Positions 33,490-54,876 are shown, counted from the first letter of the stretch. The stretch: 64,000 bases of DNA from Sorangium cellulosum (GCA_020720045.1 DYPH01000003.1:30767-94766); one strand, 5' to 3'. Translations and numbers: made by a program. Notes: generated by a model from the sequence alone, not told the origin.

Positions 33490-36078
33490 TCAGCGCTTGG
33501 GGAGGGCGTCGGTGGCGGGGAGCCCGCTTGGGGCGGCCGGATCGCGGAGGACGAGCGGAACGGCGATCGCCGCAATCGCCGCGGCGAGGCCTGCCAGGGC
33601 CCCGGGGGCGAGGCCAAAGGAGAGGCCGAGGAGCGCGGCGCCCCCGGGGACGGCGACCGCGAAGAGGGCTCGACGGAAACGACCATCGAAGGATTTCGCG
33701 TGGGCGAGGGCCCAGGCGGCGTTGGCGCCATCGCCATCGTGGACGAGGATCGTCGGTGCAGCCCCCGCGGAAGGCTCACCGAGCCTTCGTACACGGTTGG
33801 AATCCTTGGCGTATTCGGAATTAACTTCGTCGTCACGGCGCCGCGCAAGCCCGGGCCCGAGGAGGACCGCGACGTGGGGCGCGCCGAGCGTCGCTTCGTC
33901 CCACCGCGGACTTCCGACGGCGGCCAAGATGTGCCCCGCCTCCGCCAACCGGGCGACCTCCGCGGCGCGATCGCCGGGGAGGACCTCGGCACGCACGTGA
34001 TCGATACCGATTTGCGTCGCCATCGCCTCGCAAGAGGCGCGCGATTCCCCAGAAAGGAGAATCGGTTCGATCGATGCATCATGCAGCAATGCGATCGTGC
34101 GGTGCGCTTCCGAGGCAAGGCGGTCTTCGAAGCCGAGGAGGCCGATCAAGCGCCCGGCCCGCGCGACGAAAAGTGCCAGCTTTCCGACACTTTCCAGATC
34201 GGTGGCGGCCGCCTCCAGGCGCCCCAACGCGACGCCGTGGCGGAGGAGCAGGGCCCGATTGCCGACGAGGACCGTCTCGCCAGAGGCACGTGCTTCCACG
34301 CCAAGACCTGGAAATTCTTCGCAACGAAGGAGCGGCGCCGGCTGCACGTCCCGGTTTTGGGCGGCGCTACGGATCGCATCGGCCATCGGATGCTTCGAAT
34401 CACGCTCGGCGCCGGCGGCGAGCGCGATCAGCTCCTCATCGGTGACCGAACCATCGGTCAGGAGCGCACACAAAATCGGCGCCCCTTCGAGGACGGCGCC
34501 GCGCGCGCAGAGCACCGCCGCATCGACGCGGGCAGCAAGATCGAAGGCATCGCCGTCGGTGTAGAAGACCCCGCGCAGCACGCCCCGAAGACGGGCGTCG
34601 GCGAGCGCCCTTTCCGTAAGAACAACAAGTGGATACGGCAAAAATGCCGTCGCCCCGGCACAGGCGGCCAGGGTCGTATCCCACTCGTCGGTTCGCCCGG
34701 CAAACGCCGCAAATGCAGCGACGAGGGCGGCGAGCGGCGCCGCGTAAGGGGCGCGATCGACGAGCGCGGCGAAGCGCGGGGAGAGCTCGGGGGCTGCTTC
34801 GTCTTCGGCGGCGTGGAGGAGTTGGGCGTCGGTCGTGAGCGCGTCGACGGCAAGATCGAAGGCGCCTTCCGTGCACTCGGCACCTGCGGCGAGCGTCGTG
34901 ACAACGGTCCGCTCATCGCCGTAGGGGCCGACGGCAACGACCCGTCTTGCTTCGGGAAAGAGATGAACCGCCCCTTCGCCGTCGACGACATGGCCATCGG
35001 CCGCGATCGTATCTCCGGCGGAAACTCGAACGATATCTCCGCGAAACACGCCAGCACCGACCGCCTCGAGACGGTCGCGAAGGGCGCGGACGCGGTTTCG
35101 AGGGTCGGGGACGAGGGCGGCGACCAGATCGCCGATGGCGACCGCAAAGAGAATCGCCGCGGCCAAGGTGACCGTCGCGGCGCTGCGCGCATCTCCGCGT
35201 AACGTTTGAACGATTGCCCCGGCAAGCGCCACCAGCAGCGGCACCCGGGAAAGCGCCCGGAGCGGTGCCCGCGGCGCTTCGCGATCGGTCACGAGGAGCA
35301 CAAGGAGCAGGACGGTGCCGAAGCCGACGGCGCCAAGCGTCAACGAAGCGACGGAAAGCCCCAGAAAAGGAAGGAAAAATGAGAGGAATGCCGCGAGCGC
35401 GGCGAGGGCCGGCAGCCGGTAACCGGGCGGCGCCGCAGCGACGGGGACCGCTCGTCGACGCGCCGGGAGCGCCGTCGGTCGCAGAGGCACGCTCGCCGGG
35501 GCGACGACACCGCCGTCAACGTCGTCCTGTTCATACTCGTCGGCGGGGAAGCCCCGATATTCTTCCGGATTTTCGGTGTCAGCCGGTTCCGGGAGGTCGT
35601 CCTCCTCGGGGCTTCGCCGGGTCTCGGGAGGGGGCTCTTCCGCAGGTACCTCGCGCGAAAGTAGAGCAAGTACGCGGGTATCGTAACGAGGGATCGCGAC
35701 CGGCGCCGCTTCGACCGGTTCCGCAGGCGCAACCGCCACGGTGGGTGCAGGTGCTCGTCCGCCCGGAACCGCCAACGGCGGTGAGGAAACGGCGAGCACG
35801 GATGCGGTCTTTTCCAGCGGGGCATCGATCGGCAAGGTCGCGCGCGGGCGCGATGCCGAAGAGGGGGCCGGAAGTATCGTGAGCGGGGCGGCGAGGGTGA
35901 CCGGGGGAGGGTCGGCGGTCGCCGCTTCTGACGCGACCCGCGCTTCGTAAAAGCGCGATTTGCATGCGCTATTGCAGAAATGGTGGAACGTGCCCCCGAC
36001 GATCGCCACCGGCCCCGCGCGCAGCGGATCGACCGCTTTTCCGCAGGCGGGACAGGTTTTTCCGGGGGGAGCGGCCAT
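33490..36078 (-). CDS. Catalytically dead P-type ATPase homologue with N-terminal zinc-finger-like motif
   Basis: The fold of a heavy-metal P-type ATPase is visible over 862 residues, but key motifs are lost. The phosphorylation motif DKTGTLT is replaced in exact register by CARGAVL, with C524 in place of the Asp. TGD reads SGE and GDGxND reads GSPRWDE. The TM6 CPC metal site reads LPY. The HP motif (KHPMADAI) is kept. The N-terminus holds C9-x-x-C12 and C35-x-x-x-C39, like a YHS/TRASH metal finger. A long acidic, Pro-rich linker (about 60-200) contains an inserted coding repeat. ATP-driven transport is not expected; a metal-binding or regulatory role is inferred. No frameshift or stop interrupts it, so it is under selection or recent. 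Confidence 0.85.
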   Translation of the reverse strand: MAAPPGKTCPACGKAVDPLRAGPVAIVGGTFHHFCNSACKSRFYEARVASEAATADPPPVTLAAPLTILPAPSSASRPRATLPIDAPLEKTASVLAVSSPPLAVPGGRAPAPTVAVAPAEPVEAAPVAIPRYDTRVLALLSREVPAEEPPPETRRSPEEDDLPEPADTENPEEYRGFPADEYEQDDVDGGVVAPASVPLRPTALPARRRAVPVAAAPPGYRLPALAALAAFLSFFLPFLGLSVASLTLGAVGFGTVLLLVLLVTDREAPRAPLRALSRVPLLVALAGAIVQTLRGDARSAATVTLAAAILFAVAIGDLVAALVPDPRNRVRALRDRLEAVGAGVFRGDIVRVSAGDTIAADGHVVDGEGAVHLFPEARRVVAVGPYGDERTVVTTLAAGAECTEGAFDLAVDALTTDAQLLHAAEDEAAPELSPRFAALVDRAPYAAPLAALVAAFAAFAGRTDEWDTTLAACAGATAFLPYPLVVLTERALADARLRGVLRGVFYTDGDAFDLAARVDAAVLCARGAVLEGAPILCALLTDGSVTDEELIALAAGAERDSKHPMADAIRSAAQNRDVQPAPLLRCEEFPGLGVEARASGETVLVGNRALLLRHGVALGRLEAAATDLESVGKLALFVARAGRLIGLLGFEDRLASEAHRTIALLHDASIEPILLSGESRASCEAMATQIGIDHVRAEVLPGDRAAEVARLAEAGHILAAVGSPRWDEATLGAPHVAVLLGPGLARRRDDEVNSEYAKDSNRVRRLGEPSAGAAPTILVHDGDGANAAWALAHAKSFDGRFRRALFAVAVPGGAALLGLSFGLAPGALAGLAAAIAAIAVPLVLRDPAAPSGLPATDALPKR
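35746..35805 (-). repeat. Dispersed in-frame coding repeat, copy in the pseudo-P-type ATPase
   Basis: This 60-bp stretch encodes [16 protein letters not shown] on the minus strand. It matches the 57-bp tandem units at 53797-53944 almost base for base; I count two differences over 60 positions (GCTCGCC/GCTTGCC and ACGAGC/ACAAGC). It sits in the protein's disordered linker. Confidence 0.93.
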
Positions 36079-36099
36079 CGGCGAGCGCCTCTACCACAC

Positions 36100-36126
36100 G
36101 AAAGGGGCCCTTTTCTGGCCCCTTTC
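36100..36126. terminator. Hairpin terminator downstream of the pseudo-ATPase promoter region
   Basis: GAAAGGGGCC (36100-36109) pairs with GGCCCCTTTC (36117-36126) around a seven-base loop. It lies between argD (minus, stop at 36134) and the next start at 36078, so it fits termination after the aminotransferase. The T tail is short. Confidence 0.7.
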
Positions 36127-36133
36127 TCTTCGA

Positions 36134-37342
36134 CTATTTAGCAGCAAGCTCGGCAACAACGGCGCGGACCGCCGCAATTCCCTCGGCGAGCTCGGCCTCG
36201 GTGACGACGAGCGGCGGGCAGAACCGGAGGACGCGGTCGCCGGCGCCGATGACAAGCACGCCTCGCGCAAAAATCTGCGGAACGACGTCACGGGCGACAA
36301 AGCCCTCGCGAACCACAAGGCCACGAAGGAGACCGACGCCGCGTTCCTGTTCGCAAACCTTCGGAAATTCCTCAACAATCGCGCGAAGCCCCTTCGCGAG
36401 GAACTCCCCTTTTTGGGTGGCCGCTTCGGCGAGCTTCTCCTCCTCGACGATCGCGAGGACCGAGAGCGCCGAGGCACAAGCAAGCGAATTTCCACCGTAA
36501 GTCGTGCCGTGGGTCCCCGGCGGGAGGGCGCCGGCGAGCGCCTCCGTCGTCGCGAAAGCGCCGATCGGGAAGCCGCCGCCGAGCCCCTTCGCCATCGCGA
36601 CGGCGTCCGGCTTCACACCGAAGTGTTGGTACCCGAACCAGGAGCCGGTCCGGCCGACGCCGGTCTGCACTTCGTCAAGGAGCAACAAGGCACCATGCGC
36701 ATCGCAAAGCGCCCGCAATCCTTGAAGAAAGCCCTCCGGCGCCGGGAGCACGCCCCCCTCGCCTTGCACCGGCTCGACGAGGATCCCGGCCACATCGGGC
36801 CCCATCGCCGCTTCGACGGCGGCGAGATCGCCGTAGGGCAAGTGGGTCACACCTTCGAGAGAACCGAATCCTTCTCGGTACTTCGGCGTCCCCGTGAGCG
36901 ACAGCGCCCCCATCGTGCGCCCATGAAAGGCGTTGTGGAAGGCGATGAGGCGCTTCTTCTCCGGCTTCCCGAGCCCCCAAAAGTGGTGGCGCGCGAGCTT
37001 CAGGAGCCCTTCGATCGCCTCGGCCCCCGAGTTGCAAAAGAGGACCCGGTCCATGCCGGTGATCGCGGCGAGCTTGTCGGCAAGCTCAATGTTTACGCGA
37101 TTGTAGAACCAGTTCGAGACGTGGGTGAGCGTCGCTGCTTGGTGGGCGATCGCCGCCACATGCTTCGGGTGGGCGTGGCCAACCGCGCAGACGGCGACGC
37201 CGGCGCAGAGGTCGAGGAACCGATTCCCTTCGACGTCCCAAACTTCGCAACCGCGCCCTTTTTCAAGAACAAACGGCGCCTGACGGTAGTTGCCGTAGAG
37301 GTGTTTTTCGGCGATCGCGCGGAAGGCGGCGTTGGCGGACAT
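36134..37342 (-). CDS. argD: Class III aminotransferase (acetylornithine/ornithine aminotransferase type)
   Basis: The 402-residue PLP enzyme matches ArgD/RocD length. The N-terminal VLEKGRGCEVWDVEGNRFLD and NSGAEAIEG (PLP phosphate site) are typical, as are FHGRTMGALS, LLDEVQTGVGRTG with the PLP-binding Asp, and AMAKGLGGGFPIGA with the Schiff-base Lys. The expected reaction is transfer of an amino group between acetylornithine (or ornithine) and 2-oxoglutarate. No other arginine gene is adjacent, so the exact substrate is uncertain. It ends just before a hairpin. Confidence 0.9.
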   Translation of the reverse strand: MSANAAFRAIAEKHLYGNYRQAPFVLEKGRGCEVWDVEGNRFLDLCAGVAVCAVGHAHPKHVAAIAHQAATLTHVSNWFYNRVNIELADKLAAITGMDRVLFCNSGAEAIEGLLKLARHHFWGLGKPEKKRLIAFHNAFHGRTMGALSLTGTPKYREGFGSLEGVTHLPYGDLAAVEAAMGPDVAGILVEPVQGEGGVLPAPEGFLQGLRALCDAHGALLLLDEVQTGVGRTGSWFGYQHFGVKPDAVAMAKGLGGGFPIGAFATTEALAGALPPGTHGTTYGGNSLACASALSVLAIVEEEKLAEAATQKGEFLAKGLRAIVEEFPKVCEQERGVGLLRGLVVREGFVARDVVPQIFARGVLVIGAGDRVLRFCPPLVVTEAELAEGIAAVRAVVAELAAK

Positions 37343-37351
37343 GCCCCTCGG

Positions 37352-38158
37352 CTAGCACGCCGGCGTTCGAGCGGCGACAAGGCGATCCACCAGCTCGACG
37401 AAGCCGGCCCCGCGGGGCGCTTTCGTCAAATAACGCGGCAAGATGGCGAGGCGCGCCTGGTGAAGATTCGCAACGCCGACTCCGACGCGGAAGACGTTAA
37501 AGCAAGGGGTGTCGTTCCCGCTGTCGCCGACGAAGGCCCAACGGAGCGGAACCACCCCCGGATCGACGCCCAAACGCTCGGAAAGAAAGGCCGCGGCGCC
37601 GGTCGCCTTGTCGTGGCCGTCGAAGGTCGCGTGGAGGTGCACGCTCGACGTGCGGACCTTCGCGCCACGATCTTCAAGAAAGTTGGTCACTTCCGCGATC
37701 ATTTCCGGCGAAACCATCGAGAACTCGCCGACGTCCCAGGCCCGATCGCTGACGCGCCCGTGACCATCGTCAGCGACGGCAAGCGCGGGGAACACGCGTG
37801 TCATTTCACGAACGATTTCATCGAGTTTTGCCACACGCTCCCGGCGAAGCTCCGGGGGGACCGGGTCCCACCGTTGCAGGCGGGTACGCCCGTTCGCGGC
37901 GGGGGTGACATACCAGCCGAGCGCGCCGTTTTCAGCGACGCACCCGGCGAGCGGGAAGAGCCGTGCCGCGACTTCCGCCCAGTTTGACGGGCGCCCGGTG
38001 AGTCCCACCGCGGAAATTCCGGCCTCGCGAAGCCGAAAGAGGGCCCGGTAGGTCGCTTCGTGGAGGGCGCCGTGGTCGAGGAAGGTGTCGTCGAGGTCAA
38101 AAAGGAGCCCCTCGACCTTCCCAGCAACGTCATCGGGGAGCGCAGCGAGCGGCTTCAT
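37352..38158 (-). CDS. HAD-superfamily (type IIB, mannosyl-3-phosphoglycerate phosphatase-like) hydrolase
   Basis: The 268-residue protein has HAD motif I LLFDLDDTFLD with the nucleophilic Asp and acid/base Asp, motif II around VGLTGRPSNW, and motif IV near VGDSGNDTPCF. The C2-type cap lies between II and IV. The family acts on sugar phosphates or phosphoglycerates. It overlaps the upstream RlmI-like gene by four bases (ATGA), and ends 9 bases before argD begins. Substrate not determinable. Confidence 0.85.
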   Translation of the reverse strand: MKPLAALPDDVAGKVEGLLFDLDDTFLDHGALHEATYRALFRLREAGISAVGLTGRPSNWAEVAARLFPLAGCVAENGALGWYVTPAANGRTRLQRWDPVPPELRRERVAKLDEIVREMTRVFPALAVADDGHGRVSDRAWDVGEFSMVSPEMIAEVTNFLEDRGAKVRTSSVHLHATFDGHDKATGAAAFLSERLGVDPGVVPLRWAFVGDSGNDTPCFNVFRVGVGVANLHQARLAILPRYLTKAPRGAGFVELVDRLVAARTPAC

Positions 38159-39342
38159 TTGGCATCGATCCGTGCAATGAGCGCTTTGAGATAGAGCCCT
38201 TCCGGCATCGCGGCGGGGACCGGGTGATCGCCCCCCTGAAAATGCCGTTCAAGGACGGTCGCGCGCACATTGGCACGGGTCGCCCCTTGGGCGAGAGCGC
38301 GGGTCAGCGCGTTGACGTCAACGGCGGCCGAGCATGAGCAAAACACAAGAAATCCGCCAGGTTTCACCGCACGCGCGCCGAGTTCCGCTACGCGCGCGTA
38401 GGCAGCGAGCGCCTGATCCCGGTTGGCCCGCGTCGGCGAGAGGCGCGGCGGATCGACCACGGCAAGATCGTATTTCCCGCGCGAGGCAGTGAGTGCCTCT
38501 TTCGCGTCGATACATTCGTAGGAGACGTTCCGATCAAGCTTATTTGCGCGTGCAATTTCTGCAGCCGTTTCAAGAGCAATCGCGCTCGCATCAACCGCGT
38601 GCACGGAAGCGGCCCCACCGCGCGCCGCCGCCAGCGAGAAGCTCCCGACGAAGCTGTAGCAGTCGAGGACCTGCTTCCCCGCCGACAGGCTCTCCACGCG
38701 AGCCCGAAGGCCGCGTTGATCGAAGTAGTAGCCAGTTTTTTGTCCAATTTCCGCGGGGATACGAAACTCGATCCCTCGTTCCCGGAAGGCGAATTCCTTC
38801 GGTGCATCCCCCCAGAGCGGCCCCGTCTTCGGCTCGAAGCTCTCCAGACGCGCCGATTCCTTCGGCGTCCGCTCGAAGATCGTCGACGCCCCAAACGCCT
38901 CGCGGAGCGCCGCGACGAGCATCGGCTCACGGATCTTCATCCCACGCGTGAGGAACTGAACGACGAGCGCCCCTCCAAAATGATCGACGACGAGGCCGGG
39001 TAGGTCGTCCCCTTCCGCGTGCACGAGCCGGTAGCCGGTGTTTTCTGGCGTCGCGATTCCGAGATCGCGACGGAGCGCGGCCGCCGCTTGGAGGCGCTTC
39101 ACAAAAAACGGCAGGTCGAGGGGCGTCGTCTCGTCGCGCACCAAGATGCGCACGGCGAGCGCCGATCCGGGCGTCCAATAGCCGCGACCGAGGAAATTCC
39201 CACGCGGATCGACGACGCGAATCTCATCGCCGGGGGCCGGTGAACCCTCCACCTTGGCGATCGCCTGCGCAAATACCCAGGGGTGACCGTGAAAGAGCGG
39301 TTGTACGTGGCCGGGCGCGAGCCGTACGAGAGGGAGAGCCAT
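38155..39342 (-). CDS. RlmI-like class I SAM-dependent rRNA methyltransferase with PUA domain
   Basis: The 395-residue protein has an N-terminal PUA domain (about 1-85; PLVRLAPGHVQPLFHGHPWVF), a middle EEHEE-like region, and a Rossmann methyltransferase. The SAM motif is LDCYSFVGSFSLAAA and the catalytic motif VVDPPRLS, then FCSCSAAV near the C-terminus. This matches RlmI, which makes m5C at 23S rRNA position 1962 in E. coli. It is the first gene of a three-gene minus-strand run with the HAD phosphatase and argD, with ATGA coupling to the first of these. Confidence 0.9.
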   Translation of the reverse strand: MALPLVRLAPGHVQPLFHGHPWVFAQAIAKVEGSPAPGDEIRVVDPRGNFLGRGYWTPGSALAVRILVRDETTPLDLPFFVKRLQAAAALRRDLGIATPENTGYRLVHAEGDDLPGLVVDHFGGALVVQFLTRGMKIREPMLVAALREAFGASTIFERTPKESARLESFEPKTGPLWGDAPKEFAFRERGIEFRIPAEIGQKTGYYFDQRGLRARVESLSAGKQVLDCYSFVGSFSLAAARGGAASVHAVDASAIALETAAEIARANKLDRNVSYECIDAKEALTASRGKYDLAVVDPPRLSPTRANRDQALAAYARVAELGARAVKPGGFLVFCSCSAAVDVNALTRALAQGATRANVRATVLERHFQGGDHPVPAAMPEGLYLKALIARIDAK

Positions 39343-39494
39343 AGATGGTACGGCTTGTTAACCCGATTTCCGTGAACGAGGCGCTACACTCGACGGCGCT
39401 TGCTTCTCGATCGCCCGATCTCGTTGCGAAGCTGCGTGGCACGACGGTTGCTCAGTGCATCACGCCGCGCTCGCCGCGAAGGAGACCCGACGCC

Positions 39495-40484
39495 ATGTCC
39501 AGCCGCCCCCTGATTGCCGCCACGTTCGCCCTCCCCGTCCTTTTTGCCGCCGGGGACGCGCTCGCCCAGAATTGCCCGCCGGGCTCTTGGTTTTGCGCTG
39601 ATGCGCGGGCCGGAGCCTCGGTGACCGTCGGCGGTGGCGTTGTCGCCCCGCCCGTGGTTGCCCCACCGGTGGTTGCGCCGCCGGTCATCGTTGCGCCCCC
39701 AGTGGTCGCACCGCCGGTGATCGTCGCGCCGCCGGCGCCGGTCTATCCCCAGTACCCCCAGCAGCCGGTCTATCCCCAGTACCCCCAGCAGCCGGTTTAT
39801 CCCCAGCAGCCATACCAGCAGCCGGGCACCACCCGCGTCGTCATCGTCCCCGGCAACCGGCAGACGAACTACTACCAGCCCGCGCCCCAGCAGCCGCCGC
39901 AACCGGGCCTGTACGTCCGCACGAACAACGTCCGCCCGCGCTTTCAGCGGGAGTGGGGCTTGAACCTTCACCTCCAGGGAGTTGGCCTCGGCGGAAAAGG
40001 GGCAATGAGCGGCGCAGGTGCCGGTCTTCGTTACCGTTTTGACCGTTCCTTCGCCGTCGAAGGCAACGTCGATGTGTTCGCCGGAACCGACTACAACGGC
40101 CTGTCCCGCGCCGAGTCGGCCGTCTCCTTCAACGCCCTCTGGTTCCTCAACCCGGGCTCCAACTTCCAGTACTACCTGCTCGGCGGCATCGGCTGGTCGG
40201 CGGCGAGTGCGGAAGGGCAGCACCCCTACTGGGACCGCGGGACGACGTCGAACCCCTACGGAACGACGAGCTCCTACAGCTACGGCTACTTCGGCGGGCA
40301 GGCCGGCTTCGGTGCCGAGTGGCGCCTCGGTCGTTCGCTCGCCGTCAACGGCGACTTCCGCCTCTTCCTTCGCGATCGCATCGACGGGAATACCTACCAG
40401 GCCGAGTTTGTCGATGGGAACGGCCGGACGACGAACAAGTCGGGCGGCGGACTCTTCACCCTCGGCGCCACGCTCTACCTCTGA
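39495..40484 (+). CDS. Outer-membrane beta-barrel protein with Pro-rich N-terminal repeats
   Basis: The ATG at 39495 follows AAGGAG with 10-base spacing and gives a signal peptide ending ALA-QN; the upstream ATG at 39345 does not. Of 329 residues, about 45-95 form PPVV(V/I)APP repeats and YPQYPQQP units. The C-terminal 170 residues have alternating aromatic strands (RFDRSFAVEGNVDVF, YYLLGGIGW, FGAEWRLGRSLAVNGDFRLF), as in OmpA/OprF-type or porin-like barrels. The last residues (LGATLYL) resemble an outer-membrane sorting end. It precedes lnt. Confidence 0.78.
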   Translation: MSSRPLIAATFALPVLFAAGDALAQNCPPGSWFCADARAGASVTVGGGVVAPPVVAPPVVAPPVIVAPPVVAPPVIVAPPAPVYPQYPQQPVYPQYPQQPVYPQQPYQQPGTTRVVIVPGNRQTNYYQPAPQQPPQPGLYVRTNNVRPRFQREWGLNLHLQGVGLGGKGAMSGAGAGLRYRFDRSFAVEGNVDVFAGTDYNGLSRAESAVSFNALWFLNPGSNFQYYLLGGIGWSAASAEGQHPYWDRGTTSNPYGTTSSYSYGYFGGQAGFGAEWRLGRSLAVNGDFRLFLRDRIDGNTYQAEFVDGNGRTTNKSGGGLFTLGATLYL

Positions 40485-40585
40485 ACTTTCCACGCATTTT
40501 TGCTCGCTTCGTCGACCGGCTCGGTCCCCTCGTTTGGGATCGGGCCGTTCTCGTTACGCCGACCGCCAAGGACAACCGGCTCCCG

Positions 40586-42115
40586 GTGACGGGGGTGCTC
40601 GGTGGGGCCGTCCTGGCGGCCGGTGGGCTCTATGCGGGGCCGCTGCGGCCGCTGGCGCCACTCATTGCGCTCACGCTCTTCGCACAGGCGCTTGGCGACG
40701 CGAAGAGCGTGAGGCGCGGCGCGGCGATCGGTTTCGCCTTTGGGGCGACGGCGCAGGCGGTGGCGCTGGCGTTTGTGGCGACGACGGCAATGCGCTTTTC
40801 GTCGGTCGGCCTCCTCGGCGGCGCGGCAGCAGTCCTCCTCACGGCAGCGGCGCAAGCGCTCCCGTATCTGGCGGTCGGGGCGGTCTTCGTGCGGTTCCGC
40901 CCGCGCTCGCCTGCTGGGTCGATCGCCGCGTTCTCTATTTTACTGCACCTTGCAACGTTTGCTCCCGGGCTCTTCCCGTGGACCGCCGCGGTTCCGCTCG
41001 CGCACCTTCCAGAAGCAATTCAACTTGCTGCTTTTTTTGGTGAACGCGGCCTTGTATTTGCCCTTGGAGCTAACGCGATGGCGCTTGCGTCGTCGCGGCG
41101 GGGGAACCTTTCGCCGCTGGCGTTCGCGAGCGGCCTGCTGGTGGCGGCGGCCACCTTCGGCACGTGGCGCGTGCGGGCCGTCGAGGGGGAGCGCCGAACA
41201 GCGCCCGCGTTTCCGGTGGCTCTCGTCGACGCGCGTGTCGACGCCCGCGGCCGATGGGCAGCGGGGACCGAACGGGGGCTCCTGGATGCTCTCCAGACGG
41301 CCACCCGCGCGCGCACAAAGCCCGGCGCCCTCGTCGTCTGGCCGGAGGCCGCCTACCCGTTTGTGCTCCCGCGCGGCACCCGCCGTGAGCCGATCGGCGC
41401 CTTTGCGATTCTCCCGACCGGTGAGAGCACGCCTATCCTAACCGGTTTATTTCTTTCCACAAAACAGGGGACGCGCACGAACGCCGCCGTCGTCGCCGCC
41501 CCGGACGGAACGCTCTCCACGGCCTCGGAAAAGCGCCACCTGGTCCTCTTTGGCGAGCAGGTCCCTTTCGTGGCCACGTTCCCGGTGCTCCGGCGCTGGT
41601 TTGGGCTCGGCCTCGGCATCGAGCCGGGGGGACCGCCGGTGACGATTTCCGTGCAGAACGCAAACATCGGAACGCTCGTCTGCTTCGAGGACACGCTGCC
41701 GGCAGCCGGTCGCGAACTGTTTCAGGCGGACAAAATCCCGAATTTACTTGTAAATATCACAAACGACGCCTGGTTTACCGGTACCGCGGAGCCCGACCTC
41801 CACCTGGCGGCGGCGACGTTTCGCGCCGTCGAGCTTGGGCGCGATCTCGTGCGCGCCGTCAACGGCGGGACGAGCGCTCACGTCACTGCGAGCGGGCGGT
41901 GGGCAGCGACGCGGAACGAGGCGGTCGGCGGCACCCTGGAAGCGACGCCGGTGCTTCTCGAAAAACGCACAATTTACGAGCAGTTCGGCGATGGGCCCTT
42001 GCTCGTCGTCGATGCACTCCTCGCCGGCGGACTCCTGTTTCGGCGACGGCGCACAAAACGGAACGAGGCGCCGACGCATGTCGACACCTCGCTGCGAGGG
42101 GCGCAGGACTGCTAG
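40586..42115 (+). CDS. lnt: Apolipoprotein N-acyltransferase
   Basis: Lnt adds the third acyl chain to lipoproteins at the inner membrane. The protein has about seven hydrophobic segments (the first near 7-25), then a nitrilase-type domain. Its catalytic residues are E254 (VWPEAAYP), K316 (EKRHLVLFGE) and C366 (LVCFEDT). It ends with one more membrane segment. From the GTG at 40586 it is 509 residues, close to the E. coli length of 512. The frame is open upstream, through a CTG at 40481 overlapping the outer-membrane gene stop, and the preceding residues look coding, so a nonstandard or earlier start is possible. It fits the lipoprotein-rich gene content here. Confidence 0.92.
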   Translation: MTGVLGGAVLAAGGLYAGPLRPLAPLIALTLFAQALGDAKSVRRGAAIGFAFGATAQAVALAFVATTAMRFSSVGLLGGAAAVLLTAAAQALPYLAVGAVFVRFRPRSPAGSIAAFSILLHLATFAPGLFPWTAAVPLAHLPEAIQLAAFFGERGLVFALGANAMALASSRRGNLSPLAFASGLLVAAATFGTWRVRAVEGERRTAPAFPVALVDARVDARGRWAAGTERGLLDALQTATRARTKPGALVVWPEAAYPFVLPRGTRREPIGAFAILPTGESTPILTGLFLSTKQGTRTNAAVVAAPDGTLSTASEKRHLVLFGEQVPFVATFPVLRRWFGLGLGIEPGGPPVTISVQNANIGTLVCFEDTLPAAGRELFQADKIPNLLVNITNDAWFTGTAEPDLHLAAATFRAVELGRDLVRAVNGGTSAHVTASGRWAATRNEAVGGTLEATPVLLEKRTIYEQFGDGPLLVVDALLAGGLLFRRRRTKRNEAPTHVDTSLRGAQDC

Positions 42116-42139
42116 CAGGCCCGCGCGGCCGCTAGCGGC

Positions 42140-44006: not shown

Positions 44007-44050
44007 AGCGTGCGGAGTTCTGCTAGCGTGCCGAGACCTTGATTCTCCCC

Positions 44051-45499: not shown

Positions 45500-45555
45500 G
45501 TGCTTTCGATGACCGACATCCAATTACAAAGTGTTTTCAGCACGATAGAACATCT

Positions 45556-46551: not shown

Positions 46552-46604
46552 AGGCGACCTCAATCCCGAAAAAAACGTGCATAGTACCTACGAAGCCCGA
46601 CCGA

Positions 46605-46979
46605 TCAGGGGTCGTCGCTGTCGTCGTCGGGGTCGGCAAACGCAGGGGGTGCCGGCGGGCCGCCGTTCGCGTAGGGGCCGACTTTCGCGCCGCACTCGGC
46701 AAAGACGCGGTCTCCGCAGCCTTTCTCCGCGGTCTTTTGCGCAGCGACGCAGGCGACGACCTTCGGCCCTTCCCGCTCGACGAGGCGGTCGAGGGAGAAG
46801 CGACACCCGCGGACGCAGTCGGACTCCGTGCAGACTGCAGCGGCATCCCGGTGGCAGCGATCTTCGCAGTCGGCGAGGACCCGGTTCTTCGGGGCGACCG
46901 CCGCACAGCCGACGAAGGCCGGCGCGAAGAGGGGCACGGCGACGACAAGACCGATTCCGAAAAGCCAGCGGCGCTCCAT
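46605..46979 (-). CDS. Small Cys-rich lipoprotein coupled to a VKOR fusion gene
   Basis: The ATG at 46979 overlaps the VKOR-fusion stop (TGATG arrangement); a GTG at 46982 is an alternative. The 124-residue product has a signal peptide with lipobox (APAFVGC). The mature part carries about nine Cys (DCEDRCHRD, CTESDCVRGC, VACVAAQ, GCGDRVFAECG), and a Pro/Asp tail. It is a probable substrate of, or partner for, the coupled thiol oxidase. No family recognised. Confidence 0.72.
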   Translation of the reverse strand: MERRWLFGIGLVVAVPLFAPAFVGCAAVAPKNRVLADCEDRCHRDAAAVCTESDCVRGCRFSLDRLVEREGPKVVACVAAQKTAEKGCGDRVFAECGAKVGPYANGGPPAPPAFADPDDDSDDP

Positions 46980-48139
46980 CACGGCGTCCCTACCACGGTC
47001 GTCGGGTTCCGTTTCGCGGCGTCGCCGCCGGCCCGTTTCGCGGCGTCGCCGCCGGCCCGTTTCGCAGCGTCGCCGCCGGCGACGACAAGCTCGTCGCGGA
47101 CGGTGCGTGCGAGGTCGGCGTCGTCGGCGTCCCCCTCGATGCGGACACGCCCGATGAACAGCAGCGGGAGCCCGAAGCCGCCCGCTTTTGTGAAGAGGGC
47201 GGCGTGATCGGCGAGGGTCTGCTCGGTGGCGGCATCAAGGAGGCAGGCGGAGAACGCCGCTTTAGGCACGCCGAATTCCTCAGCAACTCTCGTCAGATTC
47301 ACCGTATTGAGGGCGCTGTCTTCCGTCTCGAAGAGGCGGTGGGCGAAGCGCTCGGCGCCGTCCGCTTGCGGGGCGAGGCGGCCGACGCAGACGTGGGCGC
47401 GGGCGGCGTCACGGGCGTGGGGGTGCATGCGGAGCGGCTTATCGATGCGGAATACACGGATCTGGTCCCGGTAGGGGGCGATCGCCGCTTCGAGCTTCGG
47501 GTGGAGGGCCCGACAATAGGGGCATTCAAAATCGGTGAAGACGACGATCGCGAGCGATTTTTGCGGCGCCGTCGCTTCGAGCTCGCGGATCACCGTCGGC
47601 GCGCGGGGCGGCCTCGCGAGGCCAAAACCGACGGGACCGACCGCCGCGAGCACCACCAGCGCGGGGGCGGCCCGGCGGAAGCGCCCCGCAATTCCGGCCG
47701 CGGCGAGGTCGCCCCCCTGCCAGGCGCGGAGAACGGCGAGCGGCCCGAGGGCGACGGCGACGACGTCGACCACCAGGCAGTAGGTGCAAAATGCATGAAT
47801 AAAGAAGGCCTGGAGGCCGATGAGCACGAGGGCGATCGTCGCGCCGAGCGAAGCGACGATCGCGTGAGCAACCCGTGCTTTTTTCCCGGGAAGCAGCGCG
47901 AACACGGCGAGCACAGCAAACGCTCCAACGCCGATCGCCGGGAAAGGGATCCCGCTCATCGTCGCCCAGGCACGCACCTTCGCGCAGCCGCCATCTTCCG
48001 CGCAATACACGGCGGCACGTCGCGTGTAGTCTGCAAGGAGTGCCGAGGAGGCAGCCGCCCCGACGAGCGCGGCGAGAAGGGCGATCGCCGGAACCGCGCC
48101 GGCACGTGAAGGGGGAGTTTCCGTAGCTTCGTGGGGCAC
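46979..48139 (-). CDS. VKOR-thioredoxin (DsbA-like) fusion, second copy
   Basis: This 386-residue inner-membrane protein resembles the fusion at 3216-4553. The VKOR part (about 15-175) has loop cysteines C46 and C52 and the active-site pair C118-x-x-C121 (FCTYC). The periplasmic DsbA-like domain has C206-P-Y-C209 (FECPYC) and an insertion of helices, then a cis-Pro region (GFGLPLLFIG). The C-terminus ends in three GGDAAKRA units, a tandem repeat tail. It should oxidise exported Cys pairs. It is divergent from RNase R and coupled to a Cys-rich lipoprotein gene. Confidence 0.92.
   Translation of the reverse strand: MPHEATETPPSRAGAVPAIALLAALVGAAASSALLADYTRRAAVYCAEDGGCAKVRAWATMSGIPFPAIGVGAFAVLAVFALLPGKKARVAHAIVASLGATIALVLIGLQAFFIHAFCTYCLVVDVVAVALGPLAVLRAWQGGDLAAAGIAGRFRRAAPALVVLAAVGPVGFGLARPPRAPTVIRELEATAPQKSLAIVVFTDFECPYCRALHPKLEAAIAPYRDQIRVFRIDKPLRMHPHARDAARAHVCVGRLAPQADGAERFAHRLFETEDSALNTVNLTRVAEEFGVPKAAFSACLLDAATEQTLADHAALFTKAGGFGLPLLFIGRVRIEGDADDADLARTVRDELVVAGGDAAKRAGGDAAKRAGGDAAKRNPTTVVGTP
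47010..47081 (-). repeat. Three 24-bp coding repeats at the 3' end of the VKOR-fusion gene
   Basis: Three copies of a 24-bp unit (CGTTTCGCGGCGTCGCCGCC plus GGCC on the plus strand) encode three GGDAAKRA units (…GGDAAKRAGGDAAKR). Copies 1 and 2 look identical and the third has one change. This looks like recent slippage expansion. Confidence 0.88.
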
Positions 48140-48188
48140 GGGGCCGGTCTACTCGTTTTTTTGGCGACGCACGTGGTAACCCGATTCC

Positions 48189-50933
48189 ATGACGTTGCCT
48201 GCGCGCGAAGCCGTACTGGACCTCCTCGAAGAATATCCGCGCGGGCTCTCCCTCCATGAAATCGCCGAGCAACTCGGCGTCCCCCCCGGCCGACGGCGGG
48301 CGCTCCTCGGCCTCCTCGATTCCCTCGTGTTTGACGGCCAGCTCCACGGCCTCCACGGCGACGTCTTCGGCCTCCCGCCCAAGAAAAAGCCCGACCCGGT
48401 CCGCGCCCGCGGCCCGATGCCGTCGACGGTCCTCCCCGGGAAGGGGCTCCGCCAAGACCGGCAAGAGCGCCAAGACCGTCAAGAACCGACGATGCCCGGC
48501 TTCTCGGTCGCCGGCGACTCAAACCCTCGTACTTCCAAAGGAAAGAGCGCCGGACCTGAGAACTTCTCGCGCGGCGCGAAGCCGGTTCCCCAAGAGCGCG
48601 TGAAGGAGCCGGTCAAGAAGGGCCTCCCGTGGAACACCATCCAGACGCCAGGTCCTGCGGCAGGCGCCCGCCCGCGGGCCGCGAGCGGTGATCTTCGTAC
48701 CGGTCTCGTGTCTGTAAATGCACGAGGATTCGGGTTTGTTTCCGCGCCTGAGTTTGCCGGCGACGACGTATTCATCCCCGCCGAATCGCTCGGTGGCGCG
48801 ATGCACGGGGACCGCGTCGACGTGCGCATCGTCGGCCGTTCCAGCCGCGGCTCCGAGGGGGTCGTCGTTGCGATCGCCCAGCGGAGCGCGATGCGAATCG
48901 CAGGAATTTTGCGTCGTTCCAAGGGGGGCCGCGCCGCAGCGTGGGTCGAGCCCGAGGACACGCGCGTCCGCGGACCGATCGTGCTCACCGGCATCGACGC
49001 CCTCGGCGCCGAAGGGAACAGCGGCGACGATGGCGACCTCTGTGTCGTCATCATTACGCGGCACCCGGAAGACCCGAATGAAAACCCGGAAGGGAAGCTC
49101 GTCGCCGTCCTTGGGCGCCCGGGCACGCTCGCCGTTGAAACGCAGAAGTTGCTGATTCTTGGCAACATTCAAGAGACCCACTCCGACCAGGCAATCGCGG
49201 AAGCGGAGAGTTACGGCGTCGAAGTCCCGGCGACGCTGTTCGTCGGTCGCGAAGATCTGACCCACATTCCGCTGCCGACCATCGACCCGGAAGACGCCCG
49301 CGACCACGACGACGCCGTCTGGGTCGAGCGGACGAAGCAGGGGGGCTACAAGGCCTGGATCGCGATCGCCGACGTGTCTAGCTACGTCCGCCCGGGGACC
49401 GCTCTTGACGAAGAGGCGAAGGTCCGCGGGTGCTCGGTCTACCTGCCCGAGCGCGCGATTCCGATGCTGCCGCGCGCTCTCTCGTCGAATCTTTGCTCTT
49501 TGTTGCCCGACGTCATCCGCCTTTGTCTCTGCGCGGAAGTCGAATTGGACACGAAGGGGGACGTCACTTCGTACCGATTGATCCGCGGCTTCATGAAGAG
49601 CGCCGCGAAGCTCACCTACGGCAGCGTCGCCCGCGCCCTCGATCTTTCCCTCGTTCCGCCCCAGGATCCGAAGGCGGAGGCGATGAAGGAAGACCTGAAG
49701 GTCGCCTACGAACTCTCCCGCATTCTACGCGGCAAACGCCTCTCTCGCGGCGCCCTCGACTTCGAATTGCCCGAGCCGAAGATCATCTTTGACGACGCAA
49801 AAGTCCCGACGGACGTAAAGAAGCGCAGCCAAGATCCGGGAATGAAGAAGGCCTATCAGCTCATTGAAGAGCTGATGCTTCTCGGCAATGAGATCGTCGC
49901 CCGGTACCTCGTGGAGCGCACGACCCCCGGCATCTTCCGCGTCCACCTTCGGCCCGACGAAGCGAAGCTCGCTCGCCTTGCGGCGATGTGCACGGCGCTC
50001 GGCGTCCCCTTTGATCTCGACGAGACGAAGGACCCGAAGGCGCTTTCGTTGCTGCTCAAACGATTCCGCGATCTCCCCCAGGCGAGCGTGCTCAACATGC
50101 TCCTCCTGCGCAGCATGAAGCAGGCGACCTACGAGCCTGAAAATCAAGGGCATTTCGGCCTCGCCTCCGACGCCTACCTCCACTTTACGTCGCCGATCCG
50201 TCGCTACCCGGACGTCGTCGTCCACCGCGCCGTCCACCATCTTGTGCAGAGTGCAAAGATCGATCGGAGCGAGCAGGCGAAGGAAATGATCGCCGACGCC
50301 GCCCGCATGGCCTCCCAGGCGGAGCGCCGGGCGATGGAGGTCGAGCGCGGCGTCACCGATCTTTACCGCGCCTTCGTGATGAAGGACCGCCTCGGCGAGA
50401 CCTACACGGGGGCCGTCACGGCGATCGTCGGCAGCGGTGTCTTCGTCGCCCTCGATGACCCCTTCGTCGAAGTGCTCGTCCGCTCGGAAGATCTCGGCCA
50501 CGAGCCCTTCGAGCAGGACGACGACGGCCTCTTCCTCGTCGGCGCCCGGAGCGGCGATCGCATCGGCCTCGGCGACCTGATGACGGTGGAAATTCGGGAA
50601 GTTTCCCTCTCGCGCCACACCGTCTATGCCCGCCGCTTGAGCGCGGAAGGGGTCGTCCTCGGCACCGGCGGTGGGAGCCGCACGCCGAAGCGCCGCGTCC
50701 CGTTTGCGGCGCCGATCGAGGAGCCGGGCCGCGCCTCCAAGGGCAAGGCGGCGAAGGTGCCGAGCCGCGATCCCGACGGGAAGAAGAAGGCCCGTGCCGG
50801 CGCGCGGAAGATCGAGAAGGTCGTCGCGAAGAACCTCGCGAAGGCAGGGAAGCCGGAAGCGCCGGCGAAGGCGGGGAAGAAGCCTTCCACGAAAGCCGGT
50901 TTGAAGACCAAAGGGAAACGCCCGAAGCGCTGA
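48189..50933 (+). CDS. rnr: Ribonuclease R (3'-5' exoribonuclease)
   Basis: The 914-residue protein starts with a winged-helix region (about 1-65; GLSLHEIAEQLGV). A non-conserved insert of about 90 residues follows (about 70-165), rich in Gln/Arg/Asp with QDRQERQDRQE. Next are two cold-shock-like regions, and the RNB catalytic domain with DPEDARDHDDA (about 364-374, the metal-binding Asp cluster). An S1 domain lies near 735-815. The C-terminal 90 residues are Lys/Ala/Pro-rich. RNase R degrades structured RNA and helps ribosomal RNA turnover. E. coli RNase R is 813 residues, so the insert and tail account for the excess. Confidence 0.95.
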   Translation: MTLPAREAVLDLLEEYPRGLSLHEIAEQLGVPPGRRRALLGLLDSLVFDGQLHGLHGDVFGLPPKKKPDPVRARGPMPSTVLPGKGLRQDRQERQDRQEPTMPGFSVAGDSNPRTSKGKSAGPENFSRGAKPVPQERVKEPVKKGLPWNTIQTPGPAAGARPRAASGDLRTGLVSVNARGFGFVSAPEFAGDDVFIPAESLGGAMHGDRVDVRIVGRSSRGSEGVVVAIAQRSAMRIAGILRRSKGGRAAAWVEPEDTRVRGPIVLTGIDALGAEGNSGDDGDLCVVIITRHPEDPNENPEGKLVAVLGRPGTLAVETQKLLILGNIQETHSDQAIAEAESYGVEVPATLFVGREDLTHIPLPTIDPEDARDHDDAVWVERTKQGGYKAWIAIADVSSYVRPGTALDEEAKVRGCSVYLPERAIPMLPRALSSNLCSLLPDVIRLCLCAEVELDTKGDVTSYRLIRGFMKSAAKLTYGSVARALDLSLVPPQDPKAEAMKEDLKVAYELSRILRGKRLSRGALDFELPEPKIIFDDAKVPTDVKKRSQDPGMKKAYQLIEELMLLGNEIVARYLVERTTPGIFRVHLRPDEAKLARLAAMCTALGVPFDLDETKDPKALSLLLKRFRDLPQASVLNMLLLRSMKQATYEPENQGHFGLASDAYLHFTSPIRRYPDVVVHRAVHHLVQSAKIDRSEQAKEMIADAARMASQAERRAMEVERGVTDLYRAFVMKDRLGETYTGAVTAIVGSGVFVALDDPFVEVLVRSEDLGHEPFEQDDDGLFLVGARSGDRIGLGDLMTVEIREVSLSRHTVYARRLSAEGVVLGTGGGSRTPKRRVPFAAPIEEPGRASKGKAAKVPSRDPDGKKKARAGARKIEKVVAKNLAKAGKPEAPAKAGKKPSTKAGLKTKGKRPKR

Positions 50934-50977
50934 GCACCTAGCGCTTCCGGCGCGTTTGAGGGGCGTTTGTTGGGCCC

Positions 50978-51919
50978 TCAGAGAGAAAGGTCGGCGCGCA
51001 CCTCTTCGGTGTCGAAGGCCTTCATGCTCTCAAAGAGGGCGGTCAGCGCCGGGTCGTCGCTCTTGGGGAGCTGAACGGCATAGGTCACAAACATATCGCC
51101 CGGTTCCCGCCCCTTCCGGGCGACGCCTTTGCCCCGAAGGCGGACGACGGTGCCGCTCTGGGTGCGCGGTGGCACCGTGAGCGTGACCGAACCTTCGAGG
51201 GTCGGCACGCGCACTTTCGCGCCGAAGAAGGCTTCCGTGGCGGTGAGCTTCAAATCGAGGAGAAGGTTGTCCCCTTCCCGCTTGAATTGAACATGTGCGC
51301 CGACGTGAATGACGAGAACGAGGTCCCCTCGGGGGCCGCCGGCGGGGCTCGGGGCCCCCTTGCTGGCGACGCGGAGGCGGTTCCCCTCTTCGGCGCCGGC
51401 GGGGATGCGGACGGTGATCGTCTCCCCTTGGACGCGTAGATCGACGCTCGTCCCTCGACAGGCAGCGGCAAAATCAATGCGAACTTCGGCTTCGAGATCG
51501 CTCCCTTTGATCGGTGCGCGTCGACCGCCACCACCGCCGCCGCCAAACGGGTTCCCGCCGAACATGGAGAACAGGTCCTCCAGGGGGACGCCGCCAGCGC
51601 CGCCAAAATTCACGCCGCCGCCGCCGCCGCCGCCACCGCCACCGCCACCGCCGCCGCCACGTCGCGCGTAGCGCATACGCTCGGCGTCGAAGCCTTCGCG
51701 GAGGCCGTCTTCGCCAAATTCGTCATAGAGGGCGCGCTTTTTCTCGTTTGAGAGCACCTCGAAGGCGTGATTGACCTCCTTGAATCGCGCTTCCGCTTTC
51801 GCATCGCCGGGGTTTCGATCGGGGTGCAGGTCCTTCGCCAGCTTGCGATAGGTCTTCTTGAGGGTCGCTTCATCGACCCCCTTCTGCACACCGAGGACTT
51901 GGTAAAGATCTTGCGCCAT
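50978..51919 (-). CDS. Curved-DNA-binding/DnaJ-type chaperone (CbpA-like, no zinc finger)
   Basis: The 313-residue Hsp40 has a J domain (1-70) with the HPD motif at H32-P33-D34, which stimulates the ATPase of DnaK. A Gly-rich linker (about 90-130, mostly polyglycine) follows, then the two C-terminal beta-sandwich domains (about 145-300). It lacks the four CxxCxGxG zinc fingers of DnaJ, so it is type II, like CbpA. Length fits CbpA (306 residues). It converges with RNase R. Confidence 0.93.
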   Translation of the reverse strand: MAQDLYQVLGVQKGVDEATLKKTYRKLAKDLHPDRNPGDAKAEARFKEVNHAFEVLSNEKKRALYDEFGEDGLREGFDAERMRYARRGGGGGGGGGGGGGGGVNFGGAGGVPLEDLFSMFGGNPFGGGGGGGRRAPIKGSDLEAEVRIDFAAACRGTSVDLRVQGETITVRIPAGAEEGNRLRVASKGAPSPAGGPRGDLVLVIHVGAHVQFKREGDNLLLDLKLTATEAFFGAKVRVPTLEGSVTLTVPPRTQSGTVVRLRGKGVARKGREPGDMFVTYAVQLPKSDDPALTALFESMKAFDTEEVRADLSL

Positions 51920-52011
51920 GGGGACGCCGCGAAGCTAAGGCGCCGATTCGCCGGCGCAAGCAAAGTCGCGGCCAAGGCGCAAGCCATTAAAATCGAAACG
52001 ACTTCCTGGCC

Positions 52012-52533
52012 TTAGAGGCCACCATCGCGACGGGCGAGCGGCGGGACCGCCGGCAAGAAGGGCTCGATCTTCCAGCCGTCGTCTTCGCGGACGGCGTGGA
52101 TCGTCGCCGGGGCGCGGGCGAGGGTCGCCCGCGAAGGGTCTGCGGAGGCGGGGCGCTCGTCGTCAAAACGGACGGTCACGTCGGCCTCTTTCCCAGTGAT
52201 TCGAGCGACGTAGCTCGTCGGCGTCGCGAGGGCGACGCTTCGCCCGTCGGTCATCATTTCCCAGGGGTCGACGCGGCGCCCCTGCATCTTGCCGGCCCGC
52301 TCGGCGCGCTCTTTCAAGTTGTCGCGGGCGTCCGGTCCGAGGAATCCGTAGGCTTTTTTCAGAGCGCGCGGGTCCGAAGGGGCGACGTCCATCGCCTCGA
52401 CAAAGGCGGCCACGGCCCCCTCCGGCGTCGCGTTCGGCGCGGGGCGCGTGCATCCTGCAAGCACCCCTGCAAGTACCCCGGCCAGCCCGCCGGCGCCGAG
52501 CACAAACGCCGCCGAGCGCCACGGGGCGTTCAT
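52012..52533 (-). CDS. Hypothetical lipoprotein
   Basis: The 173-residue product has a signal peptide ending GVLAGC (lipobox). The mature domain resembles the NTF2-like/DUF4878 type of small lipoprotein, with a helix-strand pattern beginning ATPEGAVAAFVEAM and ending with an exposed strand EDDGWKIEPFLP. Its ATG overlaps the trpS stop by four bases, so the two are coupled. The NTF2-like assignment is by pattern only. Confidence 0.72.
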   Translation of the reverse strand: MNAPWRSAAFVLGAGGLAGVLAGVLAGCTRPAPNATPEGAVAAFVEAMDVAPSDPRALKKAYGFLGPDARDNLKERAERAGKMQGRRVDPWEMMTDGRSVALATPTSYVARITGKEADVTVRFDDERPASADPSRATLARAPATIHAVREDDGWKIEPFLPAVPPLARRDGGL

Positions 52534-53579
52534 CGCGGGAGACCGCAGCCGAGCCCCATCGACTCACGAACTTCGCGGATCGTCTCTTGGGCAATCTCGC
52601 GCGCCTTTTTGCTGTTTTCGTGGAGCGCTTCGCGGACTTCAATCACGTTAAGCGACTTCCGCTTCTCGCGGAGCGGTGCCACTTCCTTCTCGAAGTTGGC
52701 GTGGAGGAGCATCTTGCAATCGTAGCAACCCCACCCGGCGGTGGTGCAGTTCTTCACGACGCTCTCTTGCTCTTCCGCGGTGGAGAGCTCTTTGTGCATC
52801 GTGTAGATGTTGCAGATTTCCGGGTTGCCGGGATCTTCGCGCCCCTTGCGGTTCGGATCGGTGAAGGCGCCTTGGAGCTTTTTCCAGAAGGCCTTCGGCT
52901 CGTCGAAGAGGGGGATCGTATTCCCCTTCGATTTCGACATCTTCCCGTCGCCATCGAGGCCCATGATCCGCGTCGCTTTCGTGAGGAGCGGCTGCGGTTC
53001 CGGGAAGATGCCGCCGAAGCGATGATTGAAGCGGCGAGAAGTCTCGCGCGCGAGCTCCAGGTGCTGCAACTGATCGTCGCCGACGGGGACCTCGGTCGCC
53101 TTGTAGAGGAGGATGTCGGCCGACATCAGAATCGGGTAGGTAAAAAGGGCGGTCGAGACGAAGTCTTTGCCGTCGCTTTTGTCTTTGAACTGGGTCATCC
53201 GACCGAGGTCCCCCATCGGGGTCGCTGCGGCGAGATACCAGGCAAGTTCCATATGTTCGGGGACATCGCTCTGTACAAAAAGCGTATGTTCCCGGGGATC
53301 AATCCCGCAGGCGACGAGGTCGAGGGCGAGCTCGTCGATGCGGGTACGGAGGTCCTTCGGCTCGTAGGGGACGGTGATCGCGTGGGCGTCGACGACGCAG
53401 AAGAAGGCGTCTTTCCCCGACTCCTTCGCCGCATTCCCAAGGGCGACCCAGTTCCGGACCGCGCCGAGCCAGTTCCCGATATGGAAACCACCCGTCGGCT
53501 GAATTCCTGAGAAAATGCGGGGTTTTGCGACGACGCGCTTGCGACGATCTTTGGAGCTCATGGGAATCGGAGGGACCAT
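52530..53579 (-). CDS. trpS: Tryptophanyl-tRNA synthetase
   Basis: This class I enzyme charges tRNA-Trp. The HIGH-type motif is HIGNWLGAV and the KMSKS motif is GDGKMSKSKGN. TYPILMSADILLYKA and GDDQLQHLELAR are typical of TrpRS, as is the FSGIQPTG start. The ATG at 53579 has AAAGG five bases upstream and gives 349 residues; TTG at 53603 and ATG at 53561 are alternatives. The 3' half keeps a Cys pair (WGCYDCK). It is coupled to the lipoprotein gene. Confidence 0.95.
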   Translation of the reverse strand: MVPPIPMSSKDRRKRVVAKPRIFSGIQPTGGFHIGNWLGAVRNWVALGNAAKESGKDAFFCVVDAHAITVPYEPKDLRTRIDELALDLVACGIDPREHTLFVQSDVPEHMELAWYLAAATPMGDLGRMTQFKDKSDGKDFVSTALFTYPILMSADILLYKATEVPVGDDQLQHLELARETSRRFNHRFGGIFPEPQPLLTKATRIMGLDGDGKMSKSKGNTIPLFDEPKAFWKKLQGAFTDPNRKGREDPGNPEICNIYTMHKELSTAEEQESVVKNCTTAGWGCYDCKMLLHANFEKEVAPLREKRKSLNVIEVREALHENSKKAREIAQETIREVRESMGLGCGLPR

Positions 53580-53682
53580 CGCAGCCTTTGCGAACGGGCG
53601 CAACGCTTCGAACTTCGTGCGGGGCTAGAGGCGAGCGCGGCAAACTTGCCCACTCACACCTACATCTACTTACCATGCGCCG

Positions 53683-54876
53683 GTGACCCGAACTGCCGCC
53701 GCTAAAGTGCTCGTTTCCGTCGACCCGGCTCCGAAGCTGACCTGGCCGGGGAAGCCGTCGTTCGGTCCCGAACCGGCACGAGCGGTGGCGCCGCCCGCAC
53801 CTGCATCCGTGCTTGCCGTTTCCTCACCGCCGTTGGCGGTTCCGGGCGGACAAGCACCTGCATCCGTGCTTGCCGTTTCCTCACCGCCGTTGGCAGTTCC
53901 GGGCGGACAAGCACCTGCATCCGTGCTCGCCGCACCTGCATCCGACCTGCTGCAGAATGCACTGATCGTCGGCGACAACGGGGAGGCGCTGGAGGCGCTC
54001 CTCGAGACCCATCGGGGGACGGTCACGCTCGCCTACCTCGATCCGCCGTTTTTTACGCAGCGGGCGTTCACGACGAACAGCGGCGCCGCGGCGCGGGGCG
54101 AGACCGCCTTCGACGACCACTGGTCTTCGCGTGCGGAATACATGGAATTTCTGGCCCGTCGCCTGATGCTCGTCCGCGAGCTGCTGGCGCCGTGGGGCTC
54201 CGTCGTGCTGCACGTCGATCCGAAGACGAGCCACTATTTGCGTGTACTCTGCGACGAAATCTTCGGCGAAGACGCCTTCGCGAGCGAGATCGTCTGGCGT
54301 TACCGGCGCTGGCCCTCGAAACAGGAGAATTTTCAGCGGGTTCACGACGTGCTCCTCCGCTACCGGAAGGACCCGACGACCAAAGGGCGCTGGAACCAAC
54401 TCTACGAGCCGCTCGCGGCTTCGACCCAGAAAACATGGGGAACTTCCAAGCAAAAAGCGGTGGTGAACGACGAGGGGAAGCGGGCGCGCTCCTCGAAGAC
54501 GGAAGACGCCTCGCCGGGCGTGCCGCTCGGGGACGTCTGGGACATCAGCGTGATCGCGCCGGTCGCGAAAGAGCGGACCGGCTACCCGACCCAGAAGCCG
54601 GAGGCGCTCCTCAACCGCCTCATCGATGCGCTGAGCGACCCCGGCGACCTCGTCCTCGACTGCTTCGCCGGCAGCGGCACCACCCTCGCCTGCGCCGCCG
54701 AGCGCCAGCGCCGCTTCTTGGGGGTCGACGCGAGCCCGGTCTCCGTCGCGACGATCACCCGGCGCTTCGCGGCCAAAGGGGTGCCGCTCGCCTGCGTGCC
54801 GCTCGCCGACCTCACGAGCATCCCGGCGCCGCCCGACAGCACAACGCGCCTCCGCCTCGACGGTCGCGGGCGATGA
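53683..54876 (+). CDS. Site-specific DNA methyltransferase (beta class, N6-adenine or N4-cytosine)
   Basis: Motif IV, D120-P-P-F123 (LAYLDPPF), comes before motif I FAGSGTT (F328), the beta-class order found in Mod subunits and orphan MTases. Between them lies the target recognition region. The N-terminal 85 or so residues are an odd Pro/Ala-rich extension made largely of tandem repeat units (53797-53944). Translation from the GTG at 53683 gives 397 residues; a shorter start inside the repeats cannot be excluded. No restriction enzyme is adjacent, so it may be an orphan regulator. Its stop overlaps the chemoreceptor gene start (ATGA). Confidence 0.88.
53797..53944 (+). repeat. Tandem 57-bp coding repeat (dispersed element) in the methyltransferase N-terminus
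   Basis: Two full 57-bp units (53797-53853, 53854-53910) encode [20 protein letters not shown] partial third unit (from 53911) and a fourth short start (53932) follow. The first unit matches 35746-35805 nearly base for base. Being a multiple of three, the units keep the frame. Confidence 0.93.

Follow-up and report, generated by a model that had tools for sequence, protein, structure and literature searches.

A dispersed, genus-specific palindromic element found in frame in two unrelated genes of Sorangium cellulosum

How does the same short segment come to be translated in the same frame in two genes that are unrelated to each other and lie on opposite strands? The question arises from a window of 64,000 nucleotides, by which we mean the whole analysed stretch of Sorangium cellulosum DNA, and it concerns the following features.

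33493-36078, minus strand: host gene 1, coding for a P-type-ATPase-like protein of 862 amino acids
35747-35802, minus strand: single element copy in the P-type-ATPase-like gene (covariance-model match of 81.3 bits)
53683-54876, plus strand: host gene 2, coding for an N6/N4 DNA methyltransferase of 397 amino acids
53797-53861, plus strand: first full unit in the methyltransferase gene, 57 bp plus the closing direct repeat
53854-53918, plus strand: second full unit, in tandem, with direct repeats at 53854-53861 and 53911-53918
53911-53939, plus strand: remnant of a third unit, 21 bp, ending with ATCCGTGCTCGCC and then GCACCTGC and lacking the hairpin centre

A 56-nt pattern, written with IUPAC code at three variable positions, occurs without any mismatch at 35750-35805 on the minus strand and at 53803-53858 and 53860-53915 on the plus strand, compared with 0.00 matches expected from dinucleotide shuffles, and a search for repeats aligns 35743-35805 with 53803-53865 (95% over 63 nt). 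The recurrence of the unit in the ATPase-like gene on the opposite strand, as claimed by the original prediction, is thus confirmed, and its estimate of about two changes in 60 bases agrees with the two differences counted in 56 between the ATPase copy and the first methyltransferase copy. The two bases pair with each other in the stem, as C-G in one copy and as T-A in the other (alignment columns 9/47). As to the array predicted at 53797-53944, the two full tandem 57-bp units are indeed present, while its extent has to be corrected to 53797-53939, the full units being followed by the 21-bp remnant. The 8-mer GCACCTGC is found at 53797-53804 and again at 53854-53861 around the first unit, the second unit carries one stem change (GGCGG to GGCAG), and the ATPase copy has GCACCTGC as its right-hand 8-mer with no recognisable 8-mer copy at the left junction. 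The translations agree, so the element is read in the same frame in both genes, and the proposed location in linkers also holds, since both positions are low-complexity linkers: that of the ATPase-like protein separates the membrane part from a TRASH-like domain at the N-terminus, and that of the methyltransferase is the N-terminal linker ahead of the catalytic domain (Pfam match from residue 114). The window contains no other strong copy, as had been stated, the next covariance-model match scoring 14.9 bits versus 73-81 bits for the copies listed. As judged from its sequence, the P-type-ATPase-like protein is probably not a working pump, because LCARG is found at the expected place of the DKTG phosphorylation motif. 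Another predicted protein of the window (46982-48139, minus strand) ends with tandem GGDAAKRA repeats.

Outside the window the segment proves to be one member of a large family. A 32-nt core is found within three mismatches in at least 177 copies in the same genome (6.34 Mb in 357 contigs; G000), where the reversed control pattern gives 0 matches, and a covariance model derived from 38 copies yields at least 160 matches; these copy numbers are lower bounds, because both genomes carrying the element are fragmented assemblies in which several contigs end in element arrays. The genome-wide search suggested by the original prediction therefore excludes a restriction to the two genes. Among 184 genomes of the order, the element is present only in this genome (177 copies) and in that of its only congener among them (69 copies; G001, in the following the sister species), and the 182 others contain no copies. 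Among about 85,000 named species scanned, the exact core occurs only in Myxococcales bacterium bin76 (JAAFHJ01), which is taken to be the same assembly as that of the sister species. A phage or plasmid origin was rejected, as the viral contigs and the phage and plasmid records searched contain no match, and an interpretation as structured RNA was dropped for want of an Rfam match. The following description is based on 89 stretches retrieved around listed copies, which contain 121 sites with 163 units.

The consensus of 86 single-copy sites reads GCAGCTGC-ATYCG-TGCKCGCC-GTTTCCTCACCGCC-NNN-GGCGGTTCCGGGCGG-ACGMGCA-GCTGC and is 65 nt long, corresponding to 57 nt plus the second copy of an 8-mer, with conservation stopping sharply on both sides. 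The element is therefore an imperfect hairpin bracketed by 8-bp direct repeats of the consensus GCAGCTGC, and its strand folds into a two-tier structure, in which the stem TGCKCG/CGMGCA is set 5 nt inward from the left direct repeat and shares sequence with the right one. Support for the hairpin comes from 38 distinct copies, in which 97.1% of the pair cells are paired and four pairs are altered on both sides, including a change from U-A to G-C at columns 8/48; the signal is lost when the pairing is slid by 1 to 3 columns. Tandem units are spaced by 57 bp in 35 of 42 cases and otherwise by 59, 56 or 61 bp. The left and right 8-mers of one site agree at 4.96 of 8 positions, compared with 4.25 after shuffling between sites (the largest value of 2000 shuffles being 4.51), and this excess is largely restricted to the 8-mer positions; note that the right-hand 8-mers are nearer to the consensus than the left-hand ones, and that some of the apparent duplication could be element sequence because part of the right 8-mer belongs to the stem. 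Seven loci (L072, L089, L123, L129, L142, L148 and L215) contain half-elements which break off at the hairpin loop or close to it, in keeping with a cut or a template switch at the tips of hairpins.

Insertion becomes visible by comparison with the sister species, which along the long aligned stretches shares 92-95% identity with the window. Its ATPase orthologue lacks 51 bp at the element site and its methyltransferase orthologue lacks 138 bp at the array, so that the comparison of orthologues proposed with the original prediction excludes a shared ancestral linker. Together with six further pairs of empty and filled sites, namely 57-bp insertions at L075/L222, L142, L151, L140 and L083 and one of 72 bp at L120, there are eight measured insertions of 51, 57 (five times), 72 and 138 bp, all of which (8/8) are multiples of three. 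At L142 and L151 the target 8-mer is single in the empty state (GCAGATGC and GCAGGTGC, respectively) and the same variant stands on both sides of the filled one, and at L140 and L075 an 8-mer found once when empty is found twice when filled, with diverged copies; clean single-8-mer empty sites are thus confined to four pairs, two of them with one side diverged. The junctions are not always clean, as exemplified by the 51 bp in the ATPase gene, which lack the left 8-mer copy, and the 72 bp at L120. Three more candidate pairs (L104, L134 and L141) were rejected as empty sites, their junctions being too diverged to be read. About 12 other sites are filled at the same place in both species, some of them with different numbers of units (2 versus 4, 3 versus 1). 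At two sites filled in both species, L097/L226 and L074/L207, the element sequences diverge more than their flanks, which suggests replacement or repeated insertion. The insertion in the methyltransferase gene is the derived state, because in other genera the N-terminal linker of the orthologues is short and the genomes are devoid of the element; this polarity was assessed with outgroups for the methyltransferase only, and a precise deletion between the 8-mers would leave an identical empty site. In the sister species, the region just upstream of the methyltransferase start (L280, on G001:C690) encodes peptides of the kind seen when element copies are read out of frame; the genome of the window has no copy at this place.

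The original prediction regarded the element as a mobile protein-coding repeat; its distribution does not support this view as worded, the element not being primarily of a coding nature. Only 30-31 of the 121 sites fall within a called gene with a margin of at least 45 nt, compared with 79% of all positions, a count obtained with a purpose-written codon-usage caller that can miss N-terminal copies and did so in the methyltransferase of the window; GCANNTGC-type 8-mers outside elements are genic in 192 of 211 cases (91%). Most copies are free of stop codons in the three sense frames and in one or two antisense frames. Phase 0 is used by 23 of 30 genic copies (15 antisense, 8 sense), compared with 40% of the target 8-mers in genes (p=5e-5), and by 11 of 12 genic copies of the sister species (p=3e-4), some of which occupy sites common to both species and are therefore not independent. 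In both counts the gene caller could prefer certain frames where a case is short or N-terminal. In this phase the unit encodes, in either orientation, a linker of 19 residues rich in Ala, Pro, Gly and Ser, and the consensus peptides contain no aromatic or Cys residues in sense or antisense; the remaining frames of the consensus are Arg-rich, most of them with aromatic or Cys residues. Phase bias and peptide composition fit selection among the surviving insertions. A strict flank-coding test assigned 11 sites as cleanly in frame, 4 as being in the same frame with a stop and 11 as having different frames on one strand; the test did not serve as a count of disruptions, as many sites of the last class can be intergenic between neighbouring genes. 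The assumption that the element spreads while keeping the frame open is correct in that the measured insertions are divisible by three, and has to be modified in that both orientations and occasionally other frames are read. The open frame is better explained by the 57-bp unit together with selection on the survivors than by any gene-directing property.

We therefore consider the segment to represent a short non-autonomous palindromic mobile element of the MITE or RPE (Rickettsia palindromic element) type, which is subject to 8-bp target duplication, tandem expansion and protein-level filtering, and assign this reading a probability of about 0.78. We assume a trans-acting enzyme, a transposase, which would recognise the hairpin and insert the element at GCAGNTGC-like sites, and we infer a staggered insertion duplicating the 8-bp target. 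The flanking 8-mers may then permit expansion and contraction of the units by slippage across the hairpin. Insertions into genes would survive mainly where the codons of the host read the target as GCA-GCT-GC, lengthening a tolerant linker by 19 Ala/Pro/Gly/Ser-rich residues, and the others would be purged. No transposase linked to the element was found; likewise, no parent transposon was recovered, and none of the half-elements in the retrieved parts of the genome was recognised as flanking a transposase gene.

Another candidate for the mode of movement is that of a REP/REPIN-like element whose single-stranded form is mobilised by the Y1 (RAYT-like) transposases amplified in both genomes; the left-hand 8-mer would then be a favoured target and the right-hand one element sequence, without a true target duplication. 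There are 12 matches to such genes in the genome of the window and 14 in the sister species, with only distant ones elsewhere (about 25-39% identity); they show similarity to NCBIfam REP_Tyr_transpos below the cut-off, and both the strong hairpin and the half-elements broken at its loop would suit this mechanism. The transposase copies have conserved ends of their own (left, CCCCTGGCCCGGGCCAGGCAAATTCG; right, AAATCTAGCTGTCAGCTAGATTT), which are unrelated to the element, and a search with the covariance model around two of the genes gave no convincing element copy; on these two grounds a link between the Y1/RAYT-like genes and the element was rejected. Since the element also lacks a GTAG tag and both flanking 8-mers at L142 and L151 are the target's own variant, we regard this explanation as unlikely. 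The Y1/RAYT-like transposase itself is a multi-copy, IS-like gene with conserved hairpin ends (L033:2540-3484, L034:4615-5592 and L243-L262).

A spread that involves no transposition, only recombination or gene conversion among the copies together with slippage in the tandem arrays, could account for array lengths differing between the species and for elements more divergent than their flanks, as at L097/L226 and L074/L207, but it is hardly compatible with more than 120 loci with unrelated flanks and with clean empty sites sharing only 8 bp, and is thus very improbable. An ancestral or convergent low-complexity linker common to both proteins, as might be assumed from the nature of the two positions, is already refuted by these results: most of the other copies lie outside genes and they occur in either orientation, both inserts are absent in the sister species, and the outgroup methyltransferases lack the insert as well.

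The reading as a non-autonomous mobile element implies a comparison with several known systems. RPEs are palindromic elements inserted in frame into unrelated Rickettsia genes (PMC10969869; see also PMC3733652), and intragenic REPs have later been listed in several species, with CGTC-type REPs lacking a known transposase and no dedicated enzyme known for Rickettsia-type in-frame palindromic elements (PMC3733652). The element shares with RPEs that it is palindromic, dispersed over the genome and accompanied by several families, and that it is found in frame in unrelated protein genes, to which it adds a peptide and of which orthologues without the insert exist. It acts like an RPE, and the original prediction of a dispersed, mobile palindromic element of this kind is borne out by the copy number, the empty sites in the sister species and the lengths of the insertions. 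In contrast to RPEs, which measure about 150 bp, it inserts 57 bp, forms head-to-tail tandem arrays, is flanked by 8-bp direct repeats and resides in a myxobacterial host. With the REP/REPIN elements and their RAYTs (PMC3116915, PMC3733652) it has in common the high copy number, the GC-rich hairpin, the narrow range, the predominantly extragenic location and the presence of Y1 transposases in the genome, but the consensus has no terminal GTAG, no copy of the element flanks the two Y1 loci searched, and it occurs in head-to-tail tandems, which are reported as absent or under-represented for REPs, with about a quarter of the sites well inside genes. The terminal unpaired CGTC tag (PMC3733652) is also missing, as the element ends are GCAGCTGC-like and CGTC is confined to the minus strand, where it lies in the stem region. 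Like bacterial MITEs, the element is short, carries no gene of its own and has inverted-repeat arms and direct repeats acting as target duplication, the 8-bp duplication being observed in four empty/filled pairs and as a statistical excess, and not cleanly at the ATPase site; unlike MITEs (70-300 bp, PMC3733652), it is smaller and its arms make up nearly the whole element. Finally, PARCELs (PMC2996958) are likewise coding repeats with dyad symmetry and tandem arrays, but they encode amphipathic domains of 25 residues in ORFs and occur sporadically in many clades, whereas the element has a 19-residue unit, is mostly extragenic and is confined to one genus. No earlier description was found in the open literature, and the family is a new and genus-specific representative of a known kind of element.

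In-frame palindromic insertion is best known from Rickettsia, and here a single genus provides more than 100 sites. Because these many sites come with empty sites in a sister genome, and because the 8-bp target duplication can be seen and the codon-phase filter measured, two old questions become testable: the way in which such elements move, and the kinds of insertion that proteins will tolerate.

Frequent 14-mers in the retrieved DNA reveal at least three further palindromic families. The most abundant of them, with the core CGCGCCGTCTCCCGCTTCGCGGACGGACGCG, has 235 copies in the genome of the window and 91 in the sister species, a tandem period of 45 bp and no copies in the other genera searched; examples are found in the left flank of L137, at G000:C40:40462-40672 and at G001:C385:2943-3063. 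Apart from this most abundant family, one shows a single tandem spacing of 39 bp; the cores CGTCGCGAGAGACGGCGGGCCC and TCCGCCCGGCGAAGCGCCGGATCGGAGAACG, from loci L072-L160, mark the two further families. The recurrence of multiples of three across the families (57, 45 and 39 bp) is suggestive only. It is conceivable, though we would not yet favour it, that at least four palindromic families reside together in the genus, three of them with multiple-of-three tandem units (57, 45 and, from the single observation, 39 bp), perhaps sharing one machinery and jointly writing short, frame-compatible protein linkers throughout the genome.
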